Source: Natronobacterium haloterrestre
GTDB taxonomy: Archaea; Halobacteriota; Halobacteria; Halobacteriales; Natrialbaceae
Direction of reading: 5' to 3'
Length of the DNA: 64,000 nucleotides
NCBI RefSeq assembly: GCF_900112205.1
Contig: NZ_FOKW01000004.1
Span: 124,001 to 188,000, forward strand
Shown: positions 3,061-7,573 of the stretch, in pieces
Position numbering within the stretch: the stretch's first letter is position 1
Layout of the letters: each line of letters begins with the position of its first letter
Notes under the pieces: model-generated
Database searches by the model: none
What the model was told of the DNA's origin: nothing
What the model saw: the letters and a program-made list of their open reading frames with translations, nothing else
Translations under genes and position numbers: made by a program

Positions 3061-3161
3061 CGATAGTACGGGCTCGAGCGGTATAGGCCCTTTTTATAAC
3101 GGTTAATCCGGTGCGTCGCGCTACCCGTCAGCCGTTTCAGCGGTCGCCCCCTACGCTGGGT

Positions 3162-3524
3162 ATGACCGACCCCGAAACCAGACCACAGCGGCTCGAGGAC
3201 GCCGACGAACTCGACGCGTTCGTCGCGAACCACGACGTCGCGCTCGTCGAACTGTTCACGAGTGGCTGTCCGAAGTGCCAGGCGATGGAGCCGGTACTCG
3301 GCAACGTCGCCCGTTCGACGGGCGTCCCCGTCGGCCTCGTCAACCTCGGCGACGACCCGCGACTCGTCGAGCGATTCGAGGTCCAGTCCGTGCCTGCCCT
3401 CGTCGTATTCCGCGACGGGGAACGTGTTGCCCACCTGGCCGACGGCTTCGTCGGCGGCGACGAACTCACCTCGTTTCTCGCGGACCACGCCCCGGACGCG
3501 GTCGACGGGGCGAGTACAGCCTAA
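3162..3524 (+). CDS. Thioredoxin-family protein
   Basis: A 120-aa thioredoxin-fold protein, cytosolic (no signal peptide). It carries a redox motif CPKC within SGCPKCQAM, and the cis-Pro strand SVPALVVF. Canonical thioredoxins have WCGPC; here Trp is missing and the central dipeptide is PK, so it is a thioredoxin-like disulfide reductase of unknown partner rather than the general TrxA. The Met of MTDPETRPQ was chosen because the upstream reading is Arg-rich. It ends 51 bases before the exonuclease gene on the same strand, which has its own promoter-like TTAAG. Confidence 0.9.
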   Translation: MTDPETRPQRLEDADELDAFVANHDVALVELFTSGCPKCQAMEPVLGNVARSTGVPVGLVNLGDDPRLVERFEVQSVPALVVFRDGERVAHLADGFVGGDELTSFLADHAPDAVDGASTA

Positions 3525-3575: not shown

Positions 3576-5072
3576 GTGACGACTCGAGGTGGCGCGACCC
3601 TGCTCGCGGTTCGCTGCGAGACCCTCGCCGAGCGGGGCGACCCGGCGCTGTCGGACGCCCTCGAGTATTTCGACCCCGACCTCGTCTACGTGCTCCGGGA
3701 AGGGTTCGACCCACGGATCGCGAGCCGGTTCCGGCGCGCGTTCGACGGCCCCGTCGTCCGCGCCGACGACCCTCGGCGGGACGGCTGGAGAGTGGAGACC
3801 GTCGCCGGGATCCGCTTTCTCTTCGCGGACGCCCCCGAGCAGTTGACGGACTCTGCGGACGACCCGCCCGCGGACGCCGACTACGTCGTCTGTGACGCCA
3901 TCGAGACTCGCACGGACGCCGTCTCGCTCGAGGTCGACCTCGCTGGACGGGAGGCGATCGCGGCGTACCGAGCGCGGGTAGCTGACGAGCGGGCGGGCGA
4001 CGGCGGTCCGACCGTCCTCACCGGCGCGCTCGAGGCGGGCTACGACCACGTGTGGACGGCGACGGTCGACGGGAGCCGCGTTCGACTCCCGGTCCGCGGC
4101 GTCGGCCCGATCCGTCGTGCCGGGGCCGCCGAACTCGCCTGCCTCGCCTGCGGTCCGGACGGGTCGGTCGCGGTCTCGTCCGTTCCGGCCGACCGGTTCG
4201 GCCTGACGGCCCTCGAGGGCGTCGGTCCCGAAACGGCGGATCGACTCCGTGCAGCCGGCTACGACGACCGAGATGCGGTCGCCGAGGCCGCGCTCGCGGA
4301 CCTCCGGTCGGTCCGCGGGATCGGGACCGCGACAGCCGAAACGATCCGCGGGAGCGCACGGGCCGTCGCCGAGGGCAGAGTCGTACGCCGAACCGACGAC
4401 CCCGTTCCGCCCGCCGACGCCACGCCGCTTTTCGTCGACATCGAGACGGACGGTCTCCATCCGACGGTGATCCCCCTGATCGGCGTCTACGATCCCGACC
4501 GCGGCGCCTACGTCGATTTCGCCGACCGCGATCCATCGCGGGACGACCCCGGCCGCGCGACCCGCGAGTTCGTCGACTGGCTGGCCGCCGAGTACGACCG
4601 GCCCGCGCTGGTCGCCTGGAACGGCCACGAGTTCGACTTCCCCCACCTCGAGCGGTTCGTCGCGAAATACGCGCCCGGGTTCCGGGAGTACTGGCGCGAG
4701 CACGTCTCGACGTACGACCCCTACGACTGGGCGGTCCGGGGCGACAACGCCGTCCTGCCGGGGCGAACGAACCGCCTCGGCGACGTGGCCGCGGCGCTGG
4801 ACTGCGACCGCGGCCCCGAGGTCGCGGCGATCGACGGCCGAACGCTGGGGACGCGGATCCGTCGGCTGCTCGAGGCCGACGGTGCCGGTGCCGGTGCCGG
4901 TGCCGCGGACGGACCCGACGCCGTCGGCGTCGACTGGGAGCGCGCCCGCCGCTACTGCGAGGCCGACGTTCGGGAACTGGCGGCCGTGTACGACGCTATT
5001 GTAACGGCGGAAACGACGGACGAATCGCACGACGAGCGGGAGACGACCCAGACCGGACTCACCGATTTCTGA
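3576..5072 (+). CDS. HhH-containing RNase H-fold 3'-5' exonuclease (YprB/MrfB-like)
   Basis: A 498-aa predicted nuclease. The central part (residues about 205-265) holds tandem helix-hairpin-helix DNA-binding units (LEGVGPETADRLRAAGY and VRGIGTATAETI). The C-terminal part is a DEDD-type RNase H-like exonuclease: first acidic pair in VDIETDG (287-293), the second motif WNGHEFDFPHL, and a final YCEADVREL Asp. This domain matches the YprB/MrfB 'ribonuclease H-like' family. A Gly-Ala linker (GAGAGAA) is coded by GGTGCC hexamers near 4890. It starts at GTG 3576, about 28 bases after CTTAAG, so it is probably leaderless. The helicase gene follows after 8 bases, indicating an operon and likely joint DNA repair. 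Confidence 0.88.
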   Translation: MTTRGGATLLAVRCETLAERGDPALSDALEYFDPDLVYVLREGFDPRIASRFRRAFDGPVVRADDPRRDGWRVETVAGIRFLFADAPEQLTDSADDPPADADYVVCDAIETRTDAVSLEVDLAGREAIAAYRARVADERAGDGGPTVLTGALEAGYDHVWTATVDGSRVRLPVRGVGPIRRAGAAELACLACGPDGSVAVSSVPADRFGLTALEGVGPETADRLRAAGYDDRDAVAEAALADLRSVRGIGTATAETIRGSARAVAEGRVVRRTDDPVPPADATPLFVDIETDGLHPTVIPLIGVYDPDRGAYVDFADRDPSRDDPGRATREFVDWLAAEYDRPALVAWNGHEFDFPHLERFVAKYAPGFREYWREHVSTYDPYDWAVRGDNAVLPGRTNRLGDVAAALDCDRGPEVAAIDGRTLGTRIRRLLEADGAGAGAGAADGPDAVGVDWERARRYCEADVRELAAVYDAIVTAETTDESHDERETTQTGLTDF

Positions 5073-5080
5073 CACCAGCC

Positions 5081-7573
5081 ATGGACGACCGCACTGCCGA
5101 CGACCTCGCGCTCACCCCCGACGATCTCCGGGACAGCTACCCGACCGACCGCTATCGCGGCCAGATCCGCGAGCGGATCACGATCCCCGCACGGTCGGCC
5201 GACCACGTCCCGCCCGGCGACGTCCTCCCCCCGACGCTCGCCGCGCGGCTCCCCGTCGACCTCTGGAGCCACCAGGCCGAGGCCCTCGAGTCGCTTTCCG
5301 CCGGCGAGAACGTCTGCGTCTCGACGTCCACCTCGTCGGGGAAGACCTACGTCTACGGCCTCGAGATCGCCCGTCGCGCCCTCGAGAACCCGGACGTCCG
5401 CGCGTTGCTCGTCTACCCCACCAAGGCGCTCAGCCGCGACCAGCGGCGGGAACTCGCGGAGTTGTTCGACGACCTCGGACTGGACCTGACCGTCGGCGTC
5501 TACGACGGCGACACCGACCCCGGCGACAAGGCCCGCATCCGCGAGGAGGCGAACGTCGTCATCACGAACGTCGCGGGGCTGAACCAGTACCTCGAGGGGC
5601 ACCACCGCTGGGCCGGGTTCCACGCGAACTGCGAACTGGTGGTCGTCGACGAGGCCCACTCCTGGACCGGGATCAGCGGCATGCACGCGGCCTGGATCCT
5701 CCGGCGGGCCCGGCGCGTGATCGACTGGTACGGCGGCGCCCCCCAGTACGTCCTGACCAGCGCGACGATCGGCAACCCCGGCGACCACGCCGCGGCGCTG
5801 ACCGGCGAGCCGGCGACGGTGATCGACGAGGACGGCTCCCCGAGGGGCCGCCGGCACCTCGTGTTCTGGGAGCCGCCCGAACGAAGCGGGGACGACGACG
5901 GGATTCCCAGCAAGCGGCCCGCGACCGTCGAAGCACCGGAGCTGTGGGCCCACTGCTGTTACCACGGCGTCCCCTCGCTGCTGTTTTGCGACTCCCGCAA
6001 GGCGACCGAACTGGCCGTCGACCGCGCGACCGACTTCGTCGAGCACCCGACGCTGCCCTACGCCGGCGGCGTCGCCCTCGAGCCGTACAACGCGGGCCAC
6101 GGCAAACGGTCGCGCCGCGAGACCGAACGCCGGCTGAAGTCCGGCGACCTCGACGGGGTCGCGACCACCAGCGCCCTCGAGGTCGGGATCGACGTCGGCG
6201 GGATCGACGGGACCGTGCTCATGGGCTATCCCGGCTCGCGAAGCTCCTTCTGGCAGCGGATCGGCCGCGCCGGACGCGGAACCCGGGACGCCCTCTCGGT
6301 GTTCGTCCCCGACCAGGCCACCCTCGACGGCTACGTCAGCCGCCATCCCGAGTACCTGTTCGAGAACGACCCCGAGGACGCCGTCGTCGACCTCGAGAAC
6401 CACCCAGTCTTCCTGCAACACCTCCGCTGTGCGGCCCAGGAGTTGCCGGTGACCCGCGACGACGCGGACCCCTTCGGCGGACGCGACCGCCTCGAGCGGG
6501 CCGTCGCGTACGGACGCAAGACCGGCGACCTCGAGGGATCGCTCGCCGGCGGGGTGACCTACGCCCGGCGGGACCGCCCCCAGGACGATATCAGCCTCTA
6601 CGCCACCGGCGGTACGACGTTCGACGTCCGCGTGGCCGGCGAGGGTTCGATCGACCACGAGCCGATCGGCGAGGCCCGTGCGTACCGGGACTACCACGAG
6701 GGCGCGACGGTGCTCTACCGGGGCGACCGGTACGAGGTGCGCGAACTCCGGGCCGATCGACCGCAGCCGTTCGTCGAACTCGAGCCCGCGGACGTCGACT
6801 ACTACACCCAGTCCCAGCGGCAGGTGGCGATCCACGACACCGAGGTCCGCGAGTCGCGGGCGGTCGACGTCGCCGACGGGAACGGGTTCCGCCTCAACTG
6901 GGGCTACGGCACCGTCACCGTCCGCTACCCCACATACACCAAACGCGACGTCGAAACCGGTGAGGTACTCGAGACCGGCCTCGAGACCGGCGTCCCGCCG
7001 GTCGAGATGCGAACCCAGCTGTGCTGGGCGGAGGTGCCGACCGGGGTCGAACGGGCGGTGACCGAGACCCACTCCGACTACCGCAACGAGGAGTGCGTCG
7101 ACCTCCCGCCCCGGCTCCACGGCTACCTCGGCGGCATCCACGCGATCGAACACGCCATGATCGGCGTCGCGCCCCTCGAGTTGACCGTCGACTCGAACGA
7201 CCTCGGCGGGCTCGCGACGAACCGACTGCCCGACGCGCCGGACACCAGCGGCTGGTTCATCTACGACGGGGTCGAGGGCGGACTCGGGTTCTCCCGGCGG
7301 ATCTACGAGGAATTCGAGGACGTCGCCCGCCGCGCCCGGGAGCTGATCGTCGACTGCGACTGCGGCCGCGACGAGGGGTGTCCGGCCTGTCTCATGAGCG
7401 ACCGCTGTGGGAACGACAACCGGCCGCTGTACGGCCCCGCAGCGACCGACGTGATCGACGCCCTGCTCGGCGAACGCGGGGCGGAGCCGGCCGATCTCGA
7501 GCCGACGGCCGCCTCGGGGGAGACGAGCGAGGGCGACGACGGGAGGCGTCGGCCACCGGCGTCGGTCTCCTGA
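5081..7573 (+). CDS. Superfamily 2 DEAD/H helicase with DUF1998 zinc module (YprA/MrfA/Hrq1-like)
   Basis: An 830-aa ATP-dependent helicase. Motif I is TSSGKT (about residue 88), motif II DEAH in VVVDEAHSW, motif III SAT, and motif VI QRIGRAGRG. The C-terminal DUF1998 module ends with four closely spaced Cys (CDCGRDEGCPACLMSDRCG, about residues 759-777) that in MrfA and Hrq1 bind zinc. In Bacillus subtilis MrfA works with the exonuclease MrfB to excise mitomycin C lesions; here an MrfB-like exonuclease lies 8 bases upstream in the same operon. The biochemical role in this organism is inferred from that pairing. ATG 5081 was chosen because the frame further upstream overlaps the exonuclease gene. 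Confidence 0.92.
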   Translation: MDDRTADDLALTPDDLRDSYPTDRYRGQIRERITIPARSADHVPPGDVLPPTLAARLPVDLWSHQAEALESLSAGENVCVSTSTSSGKTYVYGLEIARRALENPDVRALLVYPTKALSRDQRRELAELFDDLGLDLTVGVYDGDTDPGDKARIREEANVVITNVAGLNQYLEGHHRWAGFHANCELVVVDEAHSWTGISGMHAAWILRRARRVIDWYGGAPQYVLTSATIGNPGDHAAALTGEPATVIDEDGSPRGRRHLVFWEPPERSGDDDGIPSKRPATVEAPELWAHCCYHGVPSLLFCDSRKATELAVDRATDFVEHPTLPYAGGVALEPYNAGHGKRSRRETERRLKSGDLDGVATTSALEVGIDVGGIDGTVLMGYPGSRSSFWQRIGRAGRGTRDALSVFVPDQATLDGYVSRHPEYLFENDPEDAVVDLENHPVFLQHLRCAAQELPVTRDDADPFGGRDRLERAVAYGRKTGDLEGSLAGGVTYARRDRPQDDISLYATGGTTFDVRVAGEGSIDHEPIGEARAYRDYHEGATVLYRGDRYEVRELRADRPQPFVELEPADVDYYTQSQRQVAIHDTEVRESRAVDVADGNGFRLNWGYGTVTVRYPTYTKRDVETGEVLETGLETGVPPVEMRTQLCWAEVPTGVERAVTETHSDYRNEECVDLPPRLHGYLGGIHAIEHAMIGVAPLELTVDSNDLGGLATNRLPDAPDTSGWFIYDGVEGGLGFSRRIYEEFEDVARRARELIVDCDCGRDEGCPACLMSDRCGNDNRPLYGPAATDVIDALLGERGAEPADLEPTAASGETSEGDDGRRRPPASVS

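Follow-up and report, generated by a model that had tools for sequence, protein, structure and literature searches.

In Bacillus subtilis, MrfAB (YprAB) unites a superfamily 2 (SF2) helicase carrying an MZB domain, MrfA, with an adjoining DnaQ-fold exonuclease, MrfB, in a UvrABC-independent pathway of mitomycin C repair. The published account of MrfB gives His258 as its fifth catalytic residue, Leu113 as a wedge and Phe171 as a further residue, and names 4FLU and 6WJV among its nearest structures (PMC11194089). Bell et al. place MrfB-associated YprA helicases in a repair branch, with the associated nucleases either fused or encoded downstream (PMC12458937). Here we describe a nuclease-helicase gene pair of the haloarchaeon Natronobacterium haloterrestre, which lies in a 64,000-nucleotide stretch of contig NZ_FOKW01000004.1 (positions 124,001 to 188,000; the window) and resembles MrfAB in its general plan. 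Our comparisons make it reasonably probable, if well short of certain, that the pair is a mobile, PCNA-tethered, MrfAB-like DNA-processing machine, able to replace the solo YprA helicase of other haloarchaea and most likely serving the repair of bulky or crosslinked lesions.

A sequence-only reading of the locus had described an RNase H-fold nuclease with tandem helix-hairpin-helix (HhH) motifs, encoded eight bases upstream of a YprA-type helicase with a four-Cys C-terminal module, and the gene coordinates, Pfam domains and spacer agree with that description (Table 1). The nuclease matches HHH_5 (E 3.3e-10, residues 210-258) and RNase_H_2 (E 1.6e-15, residues 285-475), and it has no NCBIfam match above cut-off. 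The TM0106 family of RecB-like nucleases (TIGR03491) shares the order of HhH followed by RNase_H_2, but reaches 26 bits against a cut-off of 97.45, is matched by residues 210-344 of the window nuclease, and has an N-terminal domain of another fold. For the helicase, Pfam returns DEAD (8.6e-24), Helicase_C (6e-11), WHD_HRQ1 (2.8e-6) and MZB (4.7e-20), and residues 53-774 align with B. subtilis YprA/MrfA (PDB 6znp) at E 2.9e-110. Its Cys module has the sequence CDCGRDEGCPACLMSDRCGNDN, and the four-Cys zinc module pattern is kept in all helicases examined, both in the window and among its relatives.

The exonuclease domain carries most of the likeness to MrfB. An AlphaFold2 (AF2) model of the nuclease, built with 80 aligned relatives, has a mean predicted local distance difference test (pLDDT) score of 91.4, and the closest structural matches of its exonuclease domain are DNA polymerase proofreading domains. 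In VIA comparisons, residues 281-480 match the archaeal PolB structure 5mdn with a Z of 14.9 and a root-mean-square deviation (rmsd) of 3.1 over 169 aligned residues, and 4flu and 6wjv are also among the matches, so that MrfB and the haloarchaeal nuclease share PolB and Pol epsilon exonuclease domains as structural neighbours. The acidic residues on which the sequence-only reading had staked its case, D288, E290, D354 and D464, are present in all 80 aligned rows, and Y460 is equally invariant. Alignment A2, from which L088 was excluded because its nuclease frame is broken, also shows no variation at L294, six residues after the first Asp, or at F353, immediately before D354; these correspond to the Leu113 wedge and Phe171 of MrfB. 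The correspondence with the Bacillus enzyme thus extends over the DxE motif, the Leu wedge, the Phe-Asp of ExoII and the final Asp. Searches by sequence against solved structures, starting from the single protein or from profile A1, did not recover MrfB among the matches listed, which are nearly all HhH proteins. The case for likeness to MrfB is therefore one of domain family, matching residues and structural neighbours in common. MrfB is likewise absent among the structural matches listed for the nuclease, an absence that excludes nothing.

A closer relationship could be proposed, in which the pair is a true MrfAB orthologue that runs the Bacillus mitomycin C pathway with cosmetic changes. 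The shared wedge and Phe-Asp residues would fit this proposal, as would a helicase that matches MrfA over nearly its whole length and a DEDD exonuclease partner in the same operon, yet we regard it as improbable given the number of differences. Where MrfB has its catalytic His, the haloarchaeal nuclease has Tyr460 in 80/80 rows, and is by its residues a DEDDy rather than a DEDDh enzyme, with activity predicted. The C-terminal tetratricopeptide repeat (TPR) domain of MrfB is absent, as a Pfam search of the nuclease found none and the AF2 model holds just a short helix, a linker and a PCNA-interacting protein (PIP) box beyond residue ~480. The gene order is also reversed, since the nuclease gene lies upstream of the helicase gene in haloarchaea and the MrfB gene lies downstream of it. 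In addition, the HhH and putative pseudo-phosphoesterase domains, the PIP box and a patchy, mobile spread belong to the haloarchaeal pair only. The earlier assignment to the same two families as MrfA and MrfB consequently stands for the helicase family and the DEDD exonuclease, and does not extend to the catalytic Tyr, the missing TPR domain, the upstream position, the N-terminus, the PIP box or the clade of the helicase.

That clade was seen in a 35-row helicase tree with long branches and a distant outgroup, in which the haloarchaeal helicases fall into one clade of paired (SH-aLRT 99) and one of solo members (100), other archaeal paired helicases make up a third clade (98), and B. subtilis MrfA groups with two bacterial rows (84). 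The separate clade of the paired helicases may argue further against orthology with MrfAB, as may relatives from outside the haloarchaea. Among 294 genomes sampled from the phylum (53 haloarchaeal and 241 other), the 241 non-haloarchaeal genomes yielded no full-length nuclease homologue (best E 7.7e-20). Eight outside loci were compared, and in five of these (L155, L157, L158, L160 and L161) an HhH-RNase_H_2 nuclease lies directly upstream of a YprA helicase, as in the window; L154 and L159 have no helicase nearby, and L156 lies on a short contig. The nuclease frames of the five operons span ~360-400 aa and differ from the haloarchaeal form in being DEDDh and in lacking both the C-terminal PIP box and an N-terminal domain of haloarchaeal size. 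Across all eight loci the last-motif residue is His in seven and Tyr in L156, and a terminal PIP box is found in none. Coupling of YprA to a DnaQ-fold nuclease is wider than haloarchaea, and the form with both Tyr and PIP box is haloarchaeal within our sample. Because the outside relatives coupled to YprA are DEDDh enzymes without a PIP box, the nuclease of the pair may have been replaced.

Within haloarchaea, the pairing is strict. A survey of 145 haloarchaeal genomes gave 61 nuclease matches (counted at E<=4.4e-45) in 56 genomes, and a helicase of at least 44% identity lies downstream of every one of them, on the same strand and within 1.6 kb, with second pieces of split matches used for distances only. 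The reverse also holds, as no helicase at or above this identity level in these genomes (61 in all) lacks the nuclease. Of 112 relatives found in named genomes, 80 were kept as loci, and the helicase gene is directly downstream of the nuclease gene in 80/80. Linkage of the two genes is far beyond chance, which bears out the operon of the sequence-only reading. A search for a constant third partner among the neighbours of the 80 loci found none; the next commonest neighbour, thymidylate synthase, occurs in just 17 and on the opposite strand, indicating that no third gene belongs to the module, which is the nuclease and helicase genes alone. As a separate observation, the thymidylate synthase gene stands just upstream of the pair in these loci (e.g. 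L092:5542-6570), and some loci add a dihydrofolate reductase-like gene.

The presence of the module in 56 of the 145 genomes makes the earlier statement that the pathway is conserved in haloarchaea too strong, as most of the other genomes carry a solo YprA instead. This solo helicase, of the 'YprA only' type described by Bell et al. in 2025, shares the helicase family, the Cys module and ~35-39% identity with the paired helicase, but it has no such adjoining nuclease in the loci examined, forms the separate clade described above and largely excludes the pair. With solo YprA counted at an identity of at least 62%, and plasmid copies at 52-56% and copies at 45-49% left out, 8 genomes have both, 48 the pair only, 71 the solo helicase only and 18 neither (Fisher odds ratio (OR) 0.042, P 3e-15). 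Taking the majority state of each of 58 genera gives 2 with both, 20 with the pair only, 26 with the solo helicase only and 10 with neither (OR 0.038, P 2.3e-6). The exclusion is also seen with stratification by family (Cochran-Mantel-Haenszel chi2 31.8) and inside single families (f3: 6 pair-only, 21 solo-only, 0 both, 0 neither, P 3.4e-6; f4: 7 both, 5 pair-only, 40 solo-only, 0 neither, P 3.0e-4), although shared ancestry still inflates all of these statistics. The pattern is that of functional replacement of the solo YprA by the pair, and it suggests a shared function and argues for a housekeeping role common to both. In passing, the 18 genomes with neither helicase include every member sampled from families f5, f8 and f9.

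A further feature that fits host repair is the C-terminus of the nuclease. Beyond a linker that varies in length, every one of the 80 aligned nucleases ends in Qxx[LI]x[DES][FW], at most 2 aa from the C-terminus. This has the form of a PIP motif, Qxx[ILM]xx[aromatic], and PIP motifs are described as usually standing at the extreme terminus (PMC2737543, PMC3504372). Position 492 is Gln in all 80 rows, position 495 is Leu in 79 and Ile in 1, position 497 is Asp in 74, Glu in 4 and Ser in 2, and position 498 is Phe in 70 and Trp in 10. By comparison, among 1845 other stop-to-stop open reading frames of at least 200 codons from the same loci, a looser motif occurs in 9 and the strict form in 0. 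The tail of the window nuclease, TTQTGLTDF, resembles those of FEN1 (TQTGLDRWT) and NreA (LQSNLDAFSRSK) from the same genome, and all three carry a single aromatic residue. NreA, an archaeal PCNA-dependent mitomycin C repair factor, offers a precedent for a repair protein of haloarchaea with a PIP motif at its C-terminus: mitomycin C repair in Hfx. volcanii is reported to suffer as much when this motif is lost as when NreA itself is lost (PMC4929162). It differs from the nuclease in being an unrelated protein of unknown activity that works with UvrABC. The conservation of the motif, its match to the FEN1 and NreA tails and the NreA precedent together make it a strong prediction that the nuclease binds PCNA through its C-terminal PIP box.

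The opposite end of the nuclease holds a domain of another kind. Residues 1-207 were modelled alone with a pLDDT of 92.4, and the best VIA match, Rv0805, covers nearly the whole domain (Z 10.2, rmsd 4.0, 176 residues aligned), followed by TT1561, purple acid phosphatases and Mre11/SbcD. In Foldseek the first row is 3ck2, a COG0622 phosphoesterase (E 2.2e-4), and DNA polymerase B-subunits also appear among the weak rows. Support for a metallophosphoesterase fold thus comes from structure comparison of the model. Of the Asp, His and Asn residues that typically bind metal in calcineurin-like metallophosphoesterases, none is conserved in the 77 rows of alignment A8, where Y156 and G175 alone are invariant and L118, L122, W160 and G196 nearly so. 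For this reason the domain looks like a dead phosphoesterase. A profile of the domain found no match in plasmid-borne fusions of phosphoesterase, HhH and RNase_H_2 (E 0.16), and the fold was not confirmed at the level of sequence. A related architecture was seen in three haloarchaeal contigs of 118, 72 and 86 kb (L162, L163 and L164), from genomes of different families, which encode nearly identical proteins of ~486 aa. That of L162 was scanned and is a fusion of a metallophosphoesterase (PF00149) with RNase_H_2. In contrast to the window nuclease, these proteins look to have kept most of the phosphoesterase motif residues.

The mobility of the pair brings a different function into consideration, namely that it is a defence module. 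In that role it would break down the DNA of viruses or plasmids, either by itself or in support of Argonaute, BREX or Cas4-type systems, and would spread with defence islands. Plasmid records with the nuclease number 36, of which 29 match over at least 80% of its length, and in Halobacterium salinarum R1 the pair is on plasmid pHS3 (OE_RS12870, OE_RS12865) with genes overlapping by 4 bases. The nucleases of Haloferax larsenii (L052) and Natronolimnohabitans innermongolicus (L056), which belong to different families, are 97.7% identical, a comparison that covers the nuclease and no core gene. PADLOC matches at E<=1e-40 are found for at most 11 of 333 neighbour-gene clusters and for 2 of 299 genes drawn at random from 20 of the contigs concerned (P 0.024); they comprise three Argonautes, PglX, PglZ, BrxHII, Avs2, CARF/Csx1, PDC-S27 and one Cas12f/TnpB-like protein. 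An Argonaute gene is directly upstream of the pair in four loci (L071, L080, L086 and L085), a Cas4-like gene in four others (L091, L099, L101 and L103) and PglZ-BrxHII in one (L053), and a helicase gene adjoining some haloarchaeal ago-agaP operons is mentioned in an mLife article (PMC11442185). On the other side, the enrichment weakens to P 0.067 when the Cas12f match is removed and CARF/Csx1 is counted once, and defence-type neighbours stand in a minority of the 80 loci, in which thymidylate synthase is commonest; the window pair adjoins glnA and a thioredoxin gene. The nuclease matches none of the PADLOC families, and the helicase has no full-length PADLOC defence match, the best being SngC at 126.7 bits over residues 61-408 of 830. 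A search of viral contigs for a viral origin, which was not exhaustive, gave at least three weak partial matches. Exclusion with a chromosomal solo YprA would be unexpected for a defence gene, and a PCNA tag better suits host repair. The neighbour data keep the defence explanation alive, while the solo YprA exclusion and the PIP tail weigh against it, and we consider it a possible but rather doubtful account.

Two arrangements at these loci are recorded in their own right. In L071 (4307-11235), L080, L086 and L085, the Argonaute, nuclease and helicase genes run head to tail, and in L071 and L086 two more small genes precede them, one of those in L071 encoding DUF2797. Species with such an operon include Halobellus inordinatus and Natrinema hispanicum. 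On the plasmid-like contigs L052 (4259-11013) and L056 (4256-11103), the nuclease and the paired helicase are arrayed in tandem with a divergent solo-type YprA.

Several observations also weigh against our preferred repair reading. Since 18 of 145 genomes have neither helicase and 8 have both, the pair cannot be essential and its exclusion of the solo helicase is incomplete. In the helicase tree the paired helicase is not placed with MrfA, and the tree gives no ground for naming it rather than the solo one as the MrfA orthologue. Plasmid locations and Argonaute, BREX or Cas4-like neighbours, seen for some copies, are what a defence module would show, and the PIP tail is of low confidence in the AF2 model.

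Under the repair reading, for which we infer the enzymatic activities, PCNA binding and lesion type, the YprA-type helicase, taken by analogy with MrfA to be a 3'-5' translocase on single-stranded DNA, would open the duplex where it is blocked or damaged. The DEDDy exonuclease would then degrade the exposed 3'-ended strand, with activity and direction again borrowed from MrfA and MrfB, while the HhH motifs would grip the DNA backbone and the dead phosphoesterase domain might have a structural or docking part to play. By way of its flexible C-terminal PIP box, the nuclease may pass the resulting gap to a PCNA-bound polymerase and FEN1 for refilling. The pair would move horizontally and substitute for the solo YprA helicase of other haloarchaea. 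A role of the haloarchaeal pair in mitomycin C repair is an extrapolation. It is very improbable, in our estimation, that RNase_H_2 and YprA instead form an RNA or R-loop processing pair acting on RNA-containing structures at the replication fork: DEDDy folds do include ribonucleases such as RNase D and NrnC (PMC11194089), but the closest structures of the exonuclease domain are from DNA polymerases, and MrfB prefers DNA.

A broader and unlikely proposal would join repair and defence. Haloarchaea would hold two interchangeable YprA systems, one a solo chromosomal helicase and the other a mobile PCNA-tethered pair of helicase and DEDDy exonuclease with a pseudo-phosphoesterase domain, and the mobile one would repair bulky lesions and, in operon with Argonaute, Cas4-like or BREX genes, destroy replicating foreign DNA as a clamp-guided arm. 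If our interpretation is correct, a clamp-tethered helicase-exonuclease would be added to haloarchaeal repair, as a machine that alternates, either/or, between a two-gene module that moves and a solo helicase that does not. It would also link repair-type YprA helicases with defence islands and suggest that a DEDDy enzyme can take on a role of DEDDh type. Because Halobacterium salinarum R1 carries the pair on pHS3, the role of YprA-family repair helicases in archaea would become directly testable. In the portions searched of the literature on MrfAB/YprA, Hrq1/DUF1998, NreA/PCNA, the PIP box and haloarchaeal Argonaute, which exclude supplementary tables, we found no description of the PIP box, DEDDy switch, pseudo-phosphoesterase or exclusion, and Bell et al. 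may list the genes.

Table 1. Features of the nuclease-helicase locus, in positions of the window
Feature	Position	Strand	Remarks
Nuclease gene, 498 aa	3576..5072	+	GTG start 3576, stop 5070-5072; putative pseudo-phosphoesterase domain, (HhH)2, predicted DEDDy 3'-5' exonuclease domain, C-terminal PIP box
Nuclease N-terminal domain, residues 1-207	3576..4196	+	modelled metallophosphoesterase fold without conserved catalytic residues
Nuclease tandem helix-hairpin-helix domain, residues 209-266	4200..4373	+	PF14520 E 3.3e-10; RadA/Rad51 N-terminal HhH matches
Nuclease DEDDy exonuclease domain (predicted activity), residues 281-480	4416..5015	+	D288 (4437), E290 (4443), L294 wedge, F353-D354 (4635), Y460 (4953), D464 (4965)
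Nuclease C-terminal PIP box QTGLTDF, residues 492-498	5049..5069	+	
Intergenic spacer, 8 bases	5073..5080	+	
YprA/MrfA-type SF2 helicase gene, 830 aa	5081..7573	+	ATG start 5081, stop 7571-7573
Helicase MZB zinc-binding domain, residues 689-771, Cys cluster from C759	7145..7393	+	PF09369 E 4.7e-20
Thioredoxin-like gene directly upstream of the pair	3111..3524	+	PF00085 E 1.5e-11; neighbour, outside the module

A gene cluster related to the thioredoxin-like neighbour of the window occurs in 5 of the 80 loci. Elsewhere in the same genome, ~100-120 kb before the window (L170, G000:C21:3000-22900), one cluster encodes two giant helicases of the YprA type that carry MZB domains, together with a PLD-domain protein and a DUF6884 protein, and resembles the BRIGADE systems described only from haloarchaea.

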